DNA from: Tautonia plasticadhaerens
GTDB taxonomy: Bacteria > Planctomycetota > Planctomycetia > Isosphaerales > Isosphaeraceae
Assembly (NCBI RefSeq): GCF_007752535.1
Contig: NZ_CP036426.1
Span: 4,712,001 to 4,776,000 of the forward strand
Length of the DNA stretch: 64,000 nt
Direction of reading: 5' to 3'
Of this stretch, positions 6,226 to 61,913 are shown piece by piece. The translations under genes were made by a program, and so were the position numbers. The notes under the pieces were generated by a model. That model saw only the letters and a list, made by a program, of their open reading frames with translations, was not told the origin of the DNA and made no database searches. Position 1 is the stretch's first letter. Each line of letters begins with the position of its first letter.

Positions 6226-6564
6226 TTAGACGATCGTATCGTCTTCGGAGACGAGAAGTAAGGATACCGACGGTAACATTTCTAAGTAAGTTAGTTCGGC
6301 GAAACTTGAAACCCAGGAGTTCACGGGTCGGTATTCCCTCGCCAATTCGGGGGAGGCGAGATGACCGACCGCGTACCCCCCAGTAGCTGATCGTTCGACC
6401 TCCCATGTAGTGGACCCCCTTGGAGTGGCGCCCCCTGTTCGAGACTTGTTGACCCCGGGTCGCCTCGCGACGACAATGACGCTCCGACGCCCGTCGGCCC
6501 CCCGAGGTCCGGCCGGAGCGGTCTCCCGATGCTCCCGACACGTCGAACCGAGGAGGCGAATGCC
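6226..6564 (+). other. Spacer between the broken HTH gene and the aldo/keto reductase
   Basis: About 340 bases. The first ~120 are less GC-rich than the rest. No gene is supported; open frames on the minus strand here are opposite-strand shadows. Probably holds the promoter of the reductase. Confidence 0.5.
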
Positions 6565-7800
6565 ATGCACACCCCCTGCGACGGCAGCCGGAGGCGGTTT
6601 CTCAAGACGACCGCGGCGACGGGCGCCACGCTGGCCGCGGGCCCGAGCCTCCGGGCCTTCGGCCAGGACGGGCCGGCCGAAGGGCCGAAGGTCCCGCTGG
6701 TGACCCTGGGCAAGACCGGCCGGCAGGTCACCAGGCTCGGGATGGGGTCGAGCTGGCCCGTCTCCCCCAGCTTCGTGCAGGCGGCCCTGCTCTCGGGCGT
6801 CCGCTTCATCGACACCTCCGAGTCGTACGAGAACACCCGGGCCGAGCGGACCATCGGCCAGGTCCTCGAGCGGACCGGGCTGCGGGACGACGTCTACCTC
6901 GTCACCAAGACCACCCGCTACCGCGGCGTCGCCAACCCCGCCGAGGTCTTCCCGAAGGAGCTGGCGGCCAGCCTCGAACGGCTGCGAACCGACTACGTCG
7001 ACTGCTACTACATCCACGGCATCGACGGCAAGAGCATCGGCCTGCTGGGCGACCCGGCCGTCAAGCAGGCCTTCGAGGCCCTCAAGGCGGCCGGCAAGAT
7101 CAAGTTCGCCGGCTTCTCCTGCCACGACGCGATGCTGCCCGAGCTGCTGGAGAAGGCCGCCGAGGTCGGCTGGATCGACCAGGTGATGATCCAGTACAAC
7201 TTCCGGGCGGTCGACCACGACAAGCTCCAGCGCGCCATCGACGCCGCCTCCAAGGCCAACATCGGCCTGGTCGCCATGAAGACCCAGGGCGGCGCCAAGG
7301 CGGTCTTCGAGGCCATCGACAACGAGGCCGCGACCTACGAGGCCGACCGGACCCTCAAGCGGCTCCGGGAGGAGGGGGTCAAGAAGGAGGTCGCCGCCAT
7401 CAAGGCCGCCTGGGCCGACGACCGGATGCAGGTGGTCGTCTCCGAGATGCTCAACTTCAGCGACCTCCGGGAGAACATCGCCGCCAGCAACGAGCCCCTG
7501 ACCATCAAGGAGGCCCGCCTGCTGGAGGAGCACCGCCGGAAGACCACCCACCTCTACTGCCACGGCTGCGGCCACCTCTGCGAGACGGCCGCGAAGGGCG
7601 TCCCCGTGGCGACCGTCCTCCGCTACCTCCGCTACTACGCCGCCTATGGCAAGCGGCAGGAGGCCCGGGCCCTCTACCAGGCCCTCCCCGCCGAGGCCCG
7701 GGACCTCGCCAGGGCCGACCTCGACGCCGCCGAACGCTCCTGCCCGCACGGCCTGCCCGTGGTCGAACTCGTCCGCATGGCCGACCGGCACCTGAGCTGA
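6565..7800 (+). CDS. Tat-exported aldo/keto reductase with C-terminal Cys cluster
   Basis: Protein of 411 aa. A twin-arginine signal (RRRFLKTTAATGATLAA, residues 9-25) precedes an aldo/keto reductase barrel: LGKTGRQVTRLGMGSSW, FIDTSESYENTRAE, LVTKTTRYRG and YYIHGID give the catalytic Asp, Tyr, Lys and His. Such enzymes use NAD(P)H to reduce carbonyls; the natural substrate is unknown. The C-terminal extension carries C332-x2-C335-x3-C339 and a fourth Cys near 393 in CPHG, the ferredoxin-like pattern seen in many planctomycete and Bacteroidetes relatives. The ATG at 6565 was preferred over one 12 codons upstream because a strong GAGGAGG lies just before it. Confidence 0.9.
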   Translation: MHTPCDGSRRRFLKTTAATGATLAAGPSLRAFGQDGPAEGPKVPLVTLGKTGRQVTRLGMGSSWPVSPSFVQAALLSGVRFIDTSESYENTRAERTIGQVLERTGLRDDVYLVTKTTRYRGVANPAEVFPKELAASLERLRTDYVDCYYIHGIDGKSIGLLGDPAVKQAFEALKAAGKIKFAGFSCHDAMLPELLEKAAEVGWIDQVMIQYNFRAVDHDKLQRAIDAASKANIGLVAMKTQGGAKAVFEAIDNEAATYEADRTLKRLREEGVKKEVAAIKAAWADDRMQVVVSEMLNFSDLRENIAASNEPLTIKEARLLEEHRRKTTHLYCHGCGHLCETAAKGVPVATVLRYLRYYAAYGKRQEARALYQALPAEARDLARADLDAAERSCPHGLPVVELVRMADRHLS

Positions 7801-8574
7801 GCTGGTCATCGCCGTTACGACCAACCGGGCGATCCCGTCGGGATCGCCCGGGCCCGCCTCGGTGCGCGGCCGGTGCGCCCCCTCCTGCGCCGTCGGTGCG
7901 CCAAATTGACGCGAGTGCGATCGACCCAAACAACTGCCCCCAAAGCCGCTGCGTCGGGAGCCTCGGTTTCGTTTCGGGGATCCCGCCCCGGGACGTGCGG
8001 TCGAGGGCGGCCCTCGGCCGTCGCCCACCGATCGCCGATCCGGGTCGTCCGTCGCGGGTCCTGGAGGCTGGCCTCCCGTCCCCCGGCTGCCACCGAATCT
8101 GCCGGGCGGGCGCCGTCGGTGCGCCCCTGGTGCGCGGCCGGTGCGCCCCCTGGTGCGCGGCCGGTGCGCCTTTTGTCGCGAGCCCCGATCGACGAAACTC
8201 GTTCGTTTACAGGGGAATGCGCCGTCGCCCGGGCGTTCGTTTCGGGGAATTGCGGGTTGGACCGGGGTTCGGTCCGGTCCGGGTGTGCCACTGGATTGAG
8301 AAAGAGCAGCGGGTGGTCCCGGTCGGGGGATCATCCCCTGCCCCTCGGGCAACGCCCCCCGACGCCCCGGCCCCCGCGTGGGGCTGGGGGCTGCGGGCAT
8401 CCGACGGGTCGCGCTCCTCCCGGGATCGAACGCGGGGGCGCACGATCCGCGGCCCCGACGACTCGGGCGGATACCGATATGATCGAGAATTCGGGTCGCG
8501 CCAGTCACAAAATCCCCGGGGCCGATCGGCCGGGCGGGGGCCGGGTCGCCCGGGGGGAGGGCAGGGCCGGTCCC
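7801..8574. repeat. Non-coding spacer with GGTGCGCC and GTTTCG-type short repeats
   Basis: About 770 bases between two genes with no coding signal. It contains many GGTGCGCC words (for example near 7871, 7893, 8118, 8140, 8163) and GGTTTCGTTTCGGGGA-type words (near 7965 and 8236). The same two kinds of words fill the spacer at 58654-59347. Open frames here on the minus strand give ETNAR/NETEAP-like peptides, which are translations of the repeat and not supported as genes. Confidence 0.65.
8118..8170. repeat. Tandem repeat of about 23 bp, 2.4 copies
   Basis: Unit approximately GGTGCGCCCCCTGGTGCGCGGCC: 8118-8139 (one base shorter), 8140-8162, and a partial third copy 8163-8170. Each unit itself contains two GGTGCGC words. 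Confidence 0.85.
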
Positions 8575-57591: not shown

Positions 57592-58653
57592 ATGGCGGGG
57601 CAGGATGACGGCGGTGGCGGTACGAGTCGGTCGTCGGGCGGGATTGACCTGGCGGCCTACGTCTTCCTGGCCCTGATGGTCCTGATCGGCTCGACCACGG
57701 CCCTCTCGGCCAAGCTGGCAGTCCGGGAGTTGCCGCTGCCCCTGGTGCCGGTCTTCCGGTTCGGGGTCGCCGGGCTCTGCCTGCTGCCGTTCGCTCGCAG
57801 GGGGGGGGCCCTCTGGCGGATGATCCGGGAGGACCGGTGGCGGGTCCTGGCCTCGGCCCTCTTCTGCGTCGGCCTGAACCAGCTCTTCTTCCTGACCGGG
57901 GCCCGGCTGGCCCCGACCACCCACGTCGGCCTGATCTACGCCACGAACCCGCTCTTCGTGCTGCTGATCGCCTGCGGGATGGGGCAGGAGCGGATGAGGC
58001 TCGATCGGCTGGTCGGGGTCGTGACCAGCGTGCTCGGGGTGCTCATCATCGGCCTCGGGAACCTGCGGGGGGGGGCCTCGGCCGAGGCCTCCCGGGGGCT
58101 CCTGGGGGATTTACTCCTCGTCGGCGCGGTGACGACCTGGGGCGCGTACATGGCCGTCAGCCGACCGTTGATCCGGAAGCATGGGGCGCTTCCCGCGCTG
58201 GCCGGCACGTTCCTGGTCGGGGCCCTGCTCGACCTGCCGTTCACCCTGCTGGCGATGGACTGGGACGGCTCGATCGCCCCGCTGGGCCTTGGGGCGATCG
58301 GCTCGGCCTCCGCCACCGCCTGGCTGGGCCTGGCCCACCTGACCCTGATCGTCACGGTCTTCGCCCTCGGGTTCCAGAACCTGGCGATGACCAGGCTCGA
58401 CGCCAGCGAGGTGGCCACCTTCGGCAACGCGGCGCCGATCCTGACGGTCGTCTGGGGCTACCTCTTCCTGGGGGAGGCGATCACCCCCTTCCTGGTCCTC
58501 GGCGGCGCCCTGACCCTCGGCGGCATCCTCTGGACCATCCGGCCCCGACGCCATCGGGCCCCGGCGCCGACGGTGGCGCCAACCCTTTCCCAGCCGTCCG
58601 CTCCCCGCCCGGTCGAGTTCCCGAGGCCGACCCCGGTCGCCTGCGTCGACTGA
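57592..58653 (+). CDS. EamA/DMT family transporter
   Basis: Protein of 353 aa with ten predicted helices in two EamA repeats (about 20-150 and 168-315). Typical segments: IGSTTALSAKLAVRELPLPL, FRFGVAGLCLLPFARRGG, LFFLTGARLAPTTHVGLIYA, and LDASEVATFGNAAPILTVVW with GYLFLGEAITPFLVLGGALT. Family members export amino acids or other metabolites. A Pro-rich tail ends the protein. Substrate unknown. Confidence 0.88.
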   Translation: MAGQDDGGGGTSRSSGGIDLAAYVFLALMVLIGSTTALSAKLAVRELPLPLVPVFRFGVAGLCLLPFARRGGALWRMIREDRWRVLASALFCVGLNQLFFLTGARLAPTTHVGLIYATNPLFVLLIACGMGQERMRLDRLVGVVTSVLGVLIIGLGNLRGGASAEASRGLLGDLLLVGAVTTWGAYMAVSRPLIRKHGALPALAGTFLVGALLDLPFTLLAMDWDGSIAPLGLGAIGSASATAWLGLAHLTLIVTVFALGFQNLAMTRLDASEVATFGNAAPILTVVWGYLFLGEAITPFLVLGGALTLGGILWTIRPRRHRAPAPTVAPTLSQPSAPRPVEFPRPTPVACVD

Positions 58654-59347
58654 TCGAGCCGGATCCGGCGGGGGTCTCCTCGATACCGTGACGGCCCCAT
58701 TCCGAGCGGGGTCGTCTCGCCCCCCGGTCGTCCGCGACCGGGGCAAATTGGGTTTGTTTCGCGCCGAGCCCGGGGCGATTTGGGTTTGTTTCGCCCGGCA
58801 GGGGGCGGGCGGATTGGGTTTGTTTCGCGCCGGATGCGGGGCGTCGTCGGCCCCCGAAGCTCGATGACCCTCGAGGAGGGTTCGGGCGAATGATCACCGC
58901 CCGGTGCGCCCGGGTTGCGCCGGTCGGTGCGCCCGAATTCGAGACGATCATCGGAGTGATTGTGTTTCTGCCGGAATGAGTTGCGTCGATGGGCTCGGGT
59001 TCGTTTCGGGAATCCGGGGCCCGAGCCATTGGGCTTGTTTGGTCATGGCCTGGGCACGCCCACCGGATCGGGTCGACGGGTGGGGGGAACGACCGGCGAC
59101 CGTCGTCGGGCGCGATAGGGTTTGTTTCGCCGAGGGTGGTCTCGGAGATCCGGCCGGCCTGGGTGCGCCTTCGGTGCGCCGGCCGGTCGTCGCGTTCGGG
59201 TTGCCAAGGAGCGTGAGAGGCCCTCCCCATCGCCCCCGAATCGAGGGTGACGCCGAGGCCGGGGCGTGATGCGGGGGAGGCGTCCCCGCATCAACAAGAT
59301 CGGGAAAAGTCCGATCGGCAGTCACACGAAGTCGGGTGGAAGGCCGG
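58654..59347. repeat. Non-coding spacer with dispersed GGGTTTGTTTCG and GGTGCGCC repeats
   Basis: About 690 bases. ATTGGGTTTGTTTCG occurs at 58747-58761 and 58813-58827, a near copy (TTTGGGTTTGTTTCG) at 58779-58793, and variants near 58998 (GGTTCGTTTCGGG), 59028 (CATTGGGCTTGTTTGG) and 59115 (ATAGGGTTTGTTTCGCC). GGTGCGCC words cluster near 58905-58935 and 59160-59185. On the minus strand this reads as KQTQ/ETNP peptides, judged to be repeat translation. The same word set is found at 7801-8574. Confidence 0.7.
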
Positions 59348-61543
59348 TCAAGGGCGGCCGGGGTCGCCCGGGCGGAGCAGGCGGAGGGCGTTGGCGACGA
59401 CGACGAGGGTGGTGCCGACGTCGGCGGCGATGGCCATCCAGAGGTCGGCCAGGCCGAGCACCGCGAGGGCGAGGACGAGCAGCTTGAGACCGATCGCCAG
59501 GGCGATGTTCTGGCGGATGACCCGGAGGGTCCTTCGGCTGTGGCGGACGAGCCAGGGGAGGCCCCGGAGGTCGTCCGCCATCAGGACCACGTCGGCCGCC
59601 TCCAGGGCGACGGCGCTGGAGATGCCGCCGAGGGCGACGCTGACCCGGGCCTCGGCCAGCGCGGGGGCGTCGTTGACGCCGTCGCCGACCATGCCGGTCG
59701 GGCCGAGCAGGGCGTCGAGCCGTGAGACGACCTCGGCCTTGTCGGCGGGGAGCAGCCCGGCCCGGTGGTCGGCCAGGCCGAGCTCGGCGGCGGTGGCGGC
59801 GGCGGTCGAGGGGTTGTCCCCGGTGAGCATGACGGTGCGGAGGCCGAGCGTGGCCAGCTCGGCGAGCACGGCGGCGGCCTCGGGCCGGGGGCGGTCGGCC
59901 AGCCGGATCCAGCCGAGCGGCCCGCCGGGGGCCGACAACGCGACGGCGGTGCCGGGGCCGAGCTCGGCGTCGCCGAGCGAGGCGTGGAAGGCGTCGTCGC
60001 AGAGGCCCGCCTCGTCGATATAGCGGTGGCTGCCGATGTGGTATCGCGTGGCCCCGACGGTGCCGGTGGCGCCCAGGCCGGGCTGGGCCAGGTAGTCCTC
60101 GGCATCGGGCACCGCGAGGGCCATCTCCCGGGCGTGCCGGGCGATGGCCCGGCCGAGGACGTGCCCGCCCCGGTCCCCCAGGGCGGCGGCGACCCGGAGC
60201 ATCGAGTCGGGGCAGCCCTCGGCCGCGGGGACGACCTCGACGACGCTCGGCTCCCCCCGGGTCAGCGTGCCCGTCTTGTCGAAGGCGAAGACCCGGAGCC
60301 GGCCCACCGCCTCCAGGAACTGGCCCCCCTTGACCAGCACCCCCCGCCTGGCCGACGAGGCCAGGGCGCTGACCACCGCCACCGGCGTGCCGATCACCAA
60401 CGCACAGGGGCAGGCCACCACCAGCACGACCAGCCCCCGGAGGAACCACTCCCGCCAGTCGGCCGGGATTCCGAGCATCGTCCCGACCAGGGGAGGGCCG
60501 TCCATCACCAGCGCCGCCATCACGACGACCATCGGCGTGTAGACGGCCGCGAACCGCTCGATGCTCCGCTCCAGGGGCATCCGGCGCCCCTGGGCCTCGC
60601 GGACCAGCGCGGCGGTCCGGGCGACGACCGAGTCCCCCGGGGGCCGGGTGGCCTCGACGTCCAGGGCCCCGGCGCCGTTGACCGTGCCGGCGAAGACCTC
60701 GTCTCCGGGCCCCTTGTCGACCGGGACCGATTCCCCCGTGATCGCCTTCTGATCGACGCTCGACCGGCCGGAGACGACCCGGCCGTCGATCGGCACCCGG
60801 TCGCCGGCCCGGACCCGGACGCGCCGGCCCGGCCCGACCGCGTCGGCCGGGACGACCCGGGTCCCGCCTCCCGGCTCGATCAGCTCGGCCGTCTCGGGGG
60901 CGACTTCCAGCAGCGACCGGACGGCCCGACGGGCCCGGGCCAGGCTCTGGGCCTCCAGGGCCTCGGCCAGGCCGAACAGGAAGGCGACCGTGGCCGCCTC
61001 GCCCCACTCCCCCAGGGCGATGGCGCCGAGGATCGCCAGGGTCATCAAGAGGTGGATCCCCAGCCGACGCTGCCGGACCCCTCGCCAGGCCTTCGGCAGC
61101 AGCTCGACGGCCCCCAGGGCGACCGCCGCCGCGTATCCGGCCAGGGCGATCCGTCCCTCCCAGCCGAACGCCCCCGATCCCCCGGCGGCCCAGGACGACC
61201 AGTCGGCCGCCGCCCCGATCGCCAACGCCAATCCGGACGAGCCCGTCGCCCCCCACCTCGAACGGAAGGCCCGCCAGGACCCTTCGCCCTCGGACCCCCG
61301 GGCGATCATCGGTGCCTCGACGACCGGCTCGGCGGCCATGCCCGCCCCGTCTCGGATTCGGCGGGTCAGCGAGGTCGGGTCGGTGAGGCCGGGATCGAAG
61401 GAGACGGCCACGGTCCCCCCGGGCGGGTCGAAGTCCAGCCCGAGGACGCCGGGGGCCCCTTCCAGGGCACCTCGGATCGGCGAGACCTCATGGGGGCAAT
61501 CCAGCCCCTCGACCCTCAGCGTGCAGCGGGCCGGCCGCTCCAT
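59348..61543 (-). CDS. Heavy-metal-translocating P-type ATPase
   Basis: Protein of 731 aa. N-terminal heavy-metal-associated domain with a degenerate site (RVEGLDCPHEVSPIRGALEG: only one Cys, followed by His-Glu). Eight helices are expected. Motifs: TGESVPVDKGPGDEVFAGTV (actuator), VACPCALVIGTPVAVVSALA (CPC, about 377-379), FAFDKTGTLTRGEP (phosphorylated Asp near 422), TVMLTGDNPSTAAATAAELG and MVGDGVNDAPALAEARVSVA. The CPC plus degenerate HMA suggest Zn/Cd/Pb-type (ZntA/CadA) rather than Cu export, but this is not decisive. No metal regulator gene is adjacent. Confidence 0.92.
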   Translation of the reverse strand: MERPARCTLRVEGLDCPHEVSPIRGALEGAPGVLGLDFDPPGGTVAVSFDPGLTDPTSLTRRIRDGAGMAAEPVVEAPMIARGSEGEGSWRAFRSRWGATGSSGLALAIGAAADWSSWAAGGSGAFGWEGRIALAGYAAAVALGAVELLPKAWRGVRQRRLGIHLLMTLAILGAIALGEWGEAATVAFLFGLAEALEAQSLARARRAVRSLLEVAPETAELIEPGGGTRVVPADAVGPGRRVRVRAGDRVPIDGRVVSGRSSVDQKAITGESVPVDKGPGDEVFAGTVNGAGALDVEATRPPGDSVVARTAALVREAQGRRMPLERSIERFAAVYTPMVVVMAALVMDGPPLVGTMLGIPADWREWFLRGLVVLVVACPCALVIGTPVAVVSALASSARRGVLVKGGQFLEAVGRLRVFAFDKTGTLTRGEPSVVEVVPAAEGCPDSMLRVAAALGDRGGHVLGRAIARHAREMALAVPDAEDYLAQPGLGATGTVGATRYHIGSHRYIDEAGLCDDAFHASLGDAELGPGTAVALSAPGGPLGWIRLADRPRPEAAAVLAELATLGLRTVMLTGDNPSTAAATAAELGLADHRAGLLPADKAEVVSRLDALLGPTGMVGDGVNDAPALAEARVSVALGGISSAVALEAADVVLMADDLRGLPWLVRHSRRTLRVIRQNIALAIGLKLLVLALAVLGLADLWMAIAADVGTTLVVVANALRLLRPGDPGRP

Positions 61544-61913
61544 GCTCCGCGCCTCCGATCGCGTCGCCGCCGCCCCCTCCCCGGCCGCGCGGGGTGTCCC
61601 TGTCGAGGCGGTCCGAATGCCCCGAATTATAGACGGCGAGGGGAGTTGTGGAAACGCGAGGTCGGGCCGGCGCCGGGGCCCCGGGGAATCCGGCGAAAAA
61701 CTTGAGGGAAAAGTGATTAAATTGGCCCGAAGTCACGATGATATTTCTGTACGACACGCGACCACCGCAAGCAACGGTGGTCGAGAGGAAACGACCGGCC
61801 AGATCAGTTCGCGTCCGAACGCTCCGCCACTAAAGCCTCTGCGACGAAACGACCGCACGTCACGAAACGCCCGCACGCTTCTAAAGTCCGCACATTTAAA
61901 AACGAGTTCAAAA
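61544..61913 (+). promoter_or_regulatory. AT-richer promoter/leader region of the small LEGR-motif gene
   Basis: About 370 bases between divergent genes. From about 61690 the composition becomes much AT-richer than the surroundings. An 8-bp hairpin (GACCACCG 61760-61767 with CGGTGGTC 61775-61782) and two ACGAAACG-C-CCGCACG-type direct repeats (near 61848 and 61861) lie in it. TTGAGG...AAATTGG near 61705-61725 might be a promoter, unproven. No gene supported here. Confidence 0.4.

Follow-up and report, generated by a model that had tools for sequence, protein, structure and literature searches.

A promoter-like site and shared words link intergenic repeat arrays of Tautonia plasticadhaerens to an undescribed gene family

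Introduction

What are two non-coding spacers that lie 50 kb apart in the genome of Tautonia plasticadhaerens (7801-8574 and 58654-59347 of the 64,000-nt stretch analyzed here, hereafter the window) and appear to be built from the same short words? From the letters of the window it had been proposed that they belong to a dispersed intergenic repeat family, possibly transcribed or protein-bound, and are not random GC-rich sequence. The literature searched, with subscription journals mostly outside its scope, contained no description of the words, of NALKHGL or of intergenic repeats in Isosphaeraceae.

Words and Arrays

The first word, GGTGCGCC, occurs nine times on the plus strand of the two spacers (starting at 7872, 7895, 8118, 8140 and 8163 in spacer 1 and at 58903, 58926, 59162 and 59173 in spacer 2) and never on their minus strand, and the remaining 62.5 kb of the window contain none on the plus and two on the minus strand. 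Dinucleotide-shuffled spacers yield 0.15 copies on average (maximum 5). The second word (GTTYGTTT or GTTTCGTTT) is present in eight copies, again on the plus strand only, with 0.10 expected from shuffles, and the GTTYGTTT type is absent from both strands of the window outside the two spacers. The original prediction holds in these respects: the word grammar common to the two distant spacers is real, the other spacers of the window lack the words on the plus strand, and shuffling does not reproduce their frequency. The exact string GTTTCGTTTCGGG was found only once, at 7966; spacer 1 repeats the second word as TTCGTTTCGGGGA and spacer 2 as TTGGGTTTGTTTCGC, and the 13-mer GGGTTTGTTTCGC has four copies in the whole genome, all of them within spacer 2. 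The features of the two arrays are listed in Table 1.

Table 1. Features of arrays 1 and 2 and of their surroundings in the window.
Feature	Position	Strand	Remarks
Aldo/keto reductase gene	6529..7800	+	Pfam PF00248, E 4e-32; 3' end faces array 1
Perfect 13-bp inverted repeat	7825..7851	.	Between plus-strand gene stop (7800) and array 1; possible shared terminator of both
Array 1, distal unit, GGCGCACC words	7861..7902	-	GGTGCGC at 7861, 7872, 7895 on +
Array 1, second word	7965..7982	-	GGTTTCGTTTCGGGGATC on +; 268 nt from partner at 8233
Array 1, proximal unit	8118..8170	-	GGTGCGC(C) x5 on + (8118, 8129, 8140, 8152, 8163); period 11-12
Array 1, second-word copies	8200..8250	-	CGTTCGTTT at 8200, GCGTTCGTTTCGGGGAAT at 8233
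Array 1, promoter-like bipartite site	8466..8515	-	Reads leftwards into array; PWM score 47.5
Array 1, strict core	8479-8507	-	Strict pattern TGACTG-N14-CTCGATCAT
Open frame, 1254 codons	8575-12339	-	Adjoins array 1; no Pfam match; candidate gene, shortened by codon-usage caller
EamA-family transporter gene	57592..58653	+	Pfam PF00892, E 1.5e-31; 3' end faces array 2
Inverted repeat CCCCGGTCG/CGACCGGGG	58722..58743	.	Between plus-strand gene stop and array 2; possible shared terminator of both
Array 2, second word x3	58746..58828	-	WTTGGGTTTGTTTCGC on + at 58746, 58778, 58812
Array 2, distal GGCGCACC words	58903..58933	-	GGTGCGCC at 58903, 58926 on +
Array 2, second word, three more copies	58993..59130	-	58993, 59027, 59114
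Array 2, proximal GGCGCACC pair	59162..59180	-	GGTGCGCCTTCGGTGCGCC on +
TTGCCAA element	59201..59207	+	Near promoter end of array 2; common to a subset of arrays
Array 2, promoter-like bipartite site	59283..59332	-	Reads leftwards; PWM score 49.8
Array 2, strict core	59296-59324	-	Strict pattern
Heavy-metal P-type ATPase gene	59348..61543	-	Pfam PF00122/PF00702/PF00403; array 2 just downstream, same strand
Weak site match	61706-61755	+	PWM 16.2; spacer beside P-type ATPase gene; no array words downstream

The signal grows when the whole genome is counted, which contains 829 copies of GGTGCGCC compared with 571 of the reversed control, many of them in tight same-strand clusters. A ranking of spacer 8-mers over 1.2 Mb of this genome, with no word preset and an order-2 model supplying the expected counts, placed GGTGCGCC, CGGTGCGC, TGGGTTCG, TTCGCTCC and TCGTTTCG among the most over-represented. 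The clusters turn out to be arrays in which a unit of about 120 nt recurs every 150-260 nt, each unit consisting of one to four copies of GGTGCGCC-nnn, some 35-60 variable nucleotides, TTGCGTCGATC in many cases, WTTGGSTTCGYTYCG and often a second WTTGGSTTCGTTTCG. Within arrays, copies of GGTGCGCC are spaced by 10-12 and 21-23 bp, i.e., by about one and two helical turns. All arrays found reside in spacers, mostly just past the stop codon of a gene that shares the strand of the words, as far as can be told from a simple codon-usage caller that makes the flank statistics approximate. Units of the same array resemble each other more than those of different arrays, and orthologous arrays differ in unit number.

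The Promoter-Like Site

An alignment of arrays at their far ends, anchored on CAGTCACA, uncovered a bipartite motif of fixed spacing, TGTGACTG-N14-CNCGATNNT, that accompanies each of the arrays checked and reads into it from the strand opposite to the words as originally listed. Read towards the array, the site is TTTnnTGTGACTG-N14-C[AT]CGATnnTATTG with an unconserved interior. A position weight matrix (PWM) was derived from 20 sites and, as these were taken from array-linked examples, independent tests of the site weigh more. In the first 800 kb, all 14 intergenic PWM matches above 12 are followed by GGCGCACC words on the right strand, one of these loci (A:163976) being a gene of the NAHGL family described below; shuffled sequence gave no match above 12. 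Conversely, array loci of the genus that were fetched by word position contain the site correctly oriented, its score being weak in a few of them, and for locus L111, which is without an array of at least three words, no site match above 0 was listed. The strict site pattern occurs 73 times genome-wide and not at all in the control, the majority of the copies preceding arrays and others NAHGL genes. Fifteen new loci fetched by the strict site alone led to eleven arrays, three NAHGL ORFs and one case with neither downstream. In this last case (L147, 3546, minus strand), a 231-codon ORF starts at +305. Locus L102 (3198-4900) features a site, then an ORF and then a word array and is thus a gene/array hybrid; its product has a likely signal peptide and, by eye, the look of an endonuclease/exonuclease/phosphatase.

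On the basis of its fixed spacing and its location about 100-250 nt before ORFs, we infer that the bipartite site is a putative promoter. Both sites in the window are situated on the minus strand, and a transcript would therefore most likely read as the reverse complement of the words as originally listed, which is probably the functional strand. The suggestion that the repeats are transcribed or protein-bound is thus consistent with the pairing of arrays with a promoter-like site of fixed spacing. A homology between the site and the array unit is tempting by eye and did not exceed column-permuted controls.

The NAHGL Gene Family

Downstream of some sites are ORFs, roughly 370-435 codons long, that encode an N-terminal ...NARLHGLTA or ...STGPRSAGGKERASRNATAHGLS region, with ...TGPKTxEGKxRSRxNALxHGL... 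as the family signature. A profile search revealed 27 NAHGL copies in T. plasticadhaerens; congeners have 11-26, and elsewhere in the family Isosphaeraceae the number reaches 54, near-identical copies occurring within genomes. A further 20 NAHGL genes of T. plasticadhaerens were inspected: the array site (PWM > 10) resides about 110-250 nt upstream in 17 of them, and 19 carry sense-strand words close to the 3' end. The site thus points the same way as the coding strand of the gene, the two directions having been determined independently.

NAHGL proteins match neither Pfam, NCBIfam nor PHROG families of known function, nor any PDB chain by sequence, and no nucleic-acid-binding domain is recognizable in them by Pfam, NCBIfam or PDB sequence. 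An AlphaFold model features a confident all-helical core (pLDDT of at least 90 for 221 of 432 residues). Foldseek searches against PDB and viral models, in which the N-terminal region was not searched separately, returned nothing below E 0.001; the best structural Z, 7.5, is to helical bundles, and no clear relative emerged. Phage records yielded no match to NAHGL, plasmid records two. NAHGL appears to be an undescribed and as yet uncharacterized protein family of several phyla, including Planctomycetota and Acidobacteriota. Since site and words are common to both, the arrays are, by their sequence, ORF-less counterparts of NAHGL genes. A derivation by decay of NAHGL genes was considered and rejected, as array elements contain no remnant NAHGL similarity.

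Occurrence in Other Genera and Phyla

The second word (TTGGSTTYGTTTYG) is found in 29 of 45 genomes and 17 of 21 genera of the family, and tandem GGTGCGCC and the strict site are almost exclusive to the genus, the latter with 66, 35, 29 and 1 copies in four congeners. NAHGL genes are present in all 14 genomes of the family with at least five second words, and none of the 11 genomes that lack NAHGL has more than four second words (Spearman 0.52 for genus means, permutation p 0.008).

A total of 80 loci were found by the NAHGL domain, with a profile of five sequences, in named genomes, many of them draft metagenome bins, and the strict word was counted around NAHGL stop codons as complement-matched 11-mers. 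In Planctomycetota, there are 7 sites in 29 kb near NAHGL stops vs. 2 in 221 kb elsewhere, and in other phyla 6 sites in 13 kb vs. none in 110 kb; a pooled background (2 in 331 kb) would lead one to expect about 0.08 instead of these 6. The reversed control gave no match. The other phyla covered include Thermoanaerobaculia, Acidobacteria, Microgenomates, Andersenbacteria and Elusimicrobia. Downstream words seen in SAR11-type loci (L243, L247, L248) belong to a stretch that is conserved between these loci and unmatched by the strict word; they were not counted. Outside the genus, the second word occurs at NAHGL ends in either orientation, as would be expected of a site in DNA more than of one in RNA.

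Two loci of genus g221 (L065, L067) carry inverted copies of the second word (ACCGAAACGAACCCACC) beside direct copies. In another genus (L073, 1700-2200), the second word recurs in an apparent coding repeat (antisense ...DETKPI...) and may be kept there within coding sequence.

Conservation, Turnover, and RNA Structure

Nine locus pairs from two congeners were chosen by similar sites, and most of these keep flanking similarity and synteny and are therefore orthologous. When the eight pairs without NAHGL were pooled, words were identical at 425 of 461 positions (92%), the site at 151 of 161 (94%) and all other positions at 2685 of 3959 (68%), a contrast in which the alignments may slightly favor words. 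The patterns used detect no words in one of the pooled pairs (L121/L122) or in the NAHGL pair (L127/L128). As judged from these alignments, array words are preserved by purifying selection. The notion of a family of intergenic repeats dispersed over the genome is supported: there are tens of same-strand arrays, and selection acts on their words. In three congeners, the two arrays of the window were not detected next to the orthologs of their upstream genes, and the genes downstream are different there as well, indicating that arrays turn over.

A covariance analysis, which had been proposed along with the repeat family, was run on the arrays and revealed no nested covarying pairs. The window contains no Rfam family at the gathering threshold, and the predicted folds of the arrays are not unusually stable in either direction (strand z-scores -0.4 and -0.6). 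An RNA hairpin of the form GGTGCGCC-nnn-GGTGCGCC, which can pair with two G-U pairs, was discarded because there are no compensatory changes. With no conserved RNA structure, a role at the RNA level would have to be played by the linear words only.

Discussion

The two gaps look like protein-less family members because site and words are both shared with the gene family. We propose, still tentatively and with slightly less than even confidence, that they are ORF-less members of the NAHGL gene family that are probably transcribed, and that NAHGL proteins may bind the words. In this model, a full family member consists of the site, an ORF for a helical NAHGL protein and the words at the 3' end of that ORF. 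An array starts at the same site, runs leftwards through two to four units that contain GGCGCACC words, with a period of about 11, as well as CGAAACGAASCCAAT-type words and ends tail-to-tail against the 3' end of the neighboring plus-strand gene. We are fairly confident that the site acts as a promoter from which the arrays would be transcribed as non-coding RNAs of about 0.5-0.9 kb. The case for recognition of the words by NAHGL proteins is evenly balanced, the proposed targets being the CGAAACGAAGCCAAT and GGCGCACC repeats either as RNA or as double-stranded DNA. Strand-consistent words and the promoter-like site would favor RNA, whereas 11-bp phasing and the occurrence of both orientations in other phyla would favor DNA. 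It is conceivable, if rather doubtful, that the arrays act as decoys which draw off NAHGL protein as part of an autoregulatory loop, given that each array transcript would carry more words than an NAHGL mRNA. On a wider scale, the findings could reflect a gene-plus-repeat system of several phyla, in which NAHGL would recognize, at its own stop codons, a conserved word some 15 nt long (ATTGGSTTYGTTTCGCAG or its complement) and which in some Planctomycetota would have grown to tens of protein-less, promoter-bearing word arrays acting as decoys or selfish copies; we regard this as possible, just short of an even chance.

A strong rival, even if we consider it rather unlikely, is a mobile or formerly mobile family with NAHGL genes as autonomous members and the arrays as non-autonomous, REP- or MITE-like copies whose movement or duplication would depend on the NAHGL protein, or on a helper, as the factor that recognizes site and words. 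The uneven number of strict sites in the four congeners (66, 35, 29, 1), the near-identity of NAHGL copies within genomes, the absence of the window's arrays beside orthologous flanking genes of three congeners, with the other flank differing too, and the link of the second word in either orientation to NAHGL genes across phyla all speak for such mobility. However, three near-identical NAHGL loci could be aligned without revealing sharp borders, target duplications or terminal inverted repeats; copies with ORFs about 92-95% alike still diverge in the site spacer and the 5' leader; most ortholog pairs in two congeners retain flanking synteny along with purifying selection on the words; and NAHGL matches no transposase family or fold.

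It is less probable still that the arrays function as double-stranded DNA bound by a nucleoid-organizing or regulatory protein, with the site as a second binding element and transcription being incidental. Spacing of GGTGCGCC by about one and two helical turns (10-12 and 21-23 bp), the lack of RNA structure and the two orientations of the second word outside the genus agree with this possibility, but the site sits at promoter distance (about 100-250 nt) before NAHGL ORFs and the orientation of the words relative to it is constant in all arrays examined. That the spacers merely contain neutral, minisatellite-like or compositional repeats of a GC-rich genome is very improbable: greater similarity of units within than between arrays and varying unit number in orthologous arrays are in line with it, yet shuffled controls, stronger conservation of words than of the remaining positions between congeners (92 vs. 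68%) and the pairing of arrays with a bipartite site contradict it.

How does the preferred reading, ORF-less NAHGL family members, relate to established systems? CRISPR arrays, which are composed of near-identical repeats and unique spacers of uniform length, are excluded by the unit spacing of 150-260 nt and by diverged units. MIRU/VNTR-type intergenic minisatellites are tandem spacer units of about 100 nt in varying number. The arrays are likewise tandem units in spacers with varying unit number, but differ by a paired promoter-like site and by words that are strongly conserved in otherwise diverged units. In autonomous elements with MITE-like derivatives, ORF-carrying and ORF-less members share outer sequences; the present family differs by the lack of terminal inverted repeats, target duplications and sharp borders in the three aligned NAHGL loci. 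Sponge RNAs of the CsrB/RsmZ type present GGA words in hairpin loops and are encoded at one to few loci. If the arrays are transcribed, they would resemble these RNAs in offering many copies of one word, common to mRNAs, that titrate an RNA-binding protein; here, in contrast, the words are linear, dozens of loci exist and the putative binding protein is unrelated.

In general plan, the system would be most like REP/RAYT systems. REPs are palindromes of 20-40 nt with GTAG or CGTC tags, and RAYTs are transposases of the IS200 type (PMC3733652). Likenesses to REP/REPIN-RAYT comprise many short, dispersed extragenic elements, orphan copies that outnumber the gene, and a repeat that is present at the end of a cognate multicopy gene as well as dispersed in spacers, as is also the case here. 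The words described here, however, do not form palindromic hairpins, a promoter-like site is part of the unit and NAHGL has no match to an IS200-type Y1 transposase. As two defining features, palindrome and Y1 transposase, are thus missing, the arrays are not classed with REP/RAYT systems. Many unexplained spacers of the Isosphaeraceae type and the NAHGL family are linked here to one promoter-like site and one conserved word, and if NAHGL binds this word and the arrays are transcribed, they would constitute, alongside REP/RAYT, a protein-repeat partnership of a new class. Unrelated to the arrays is another dispersed repeat, about 135 nt long, that L153, L105 and the A:163976 locus (G000:C1, about 165.5 kb) share at 80-87% identity.
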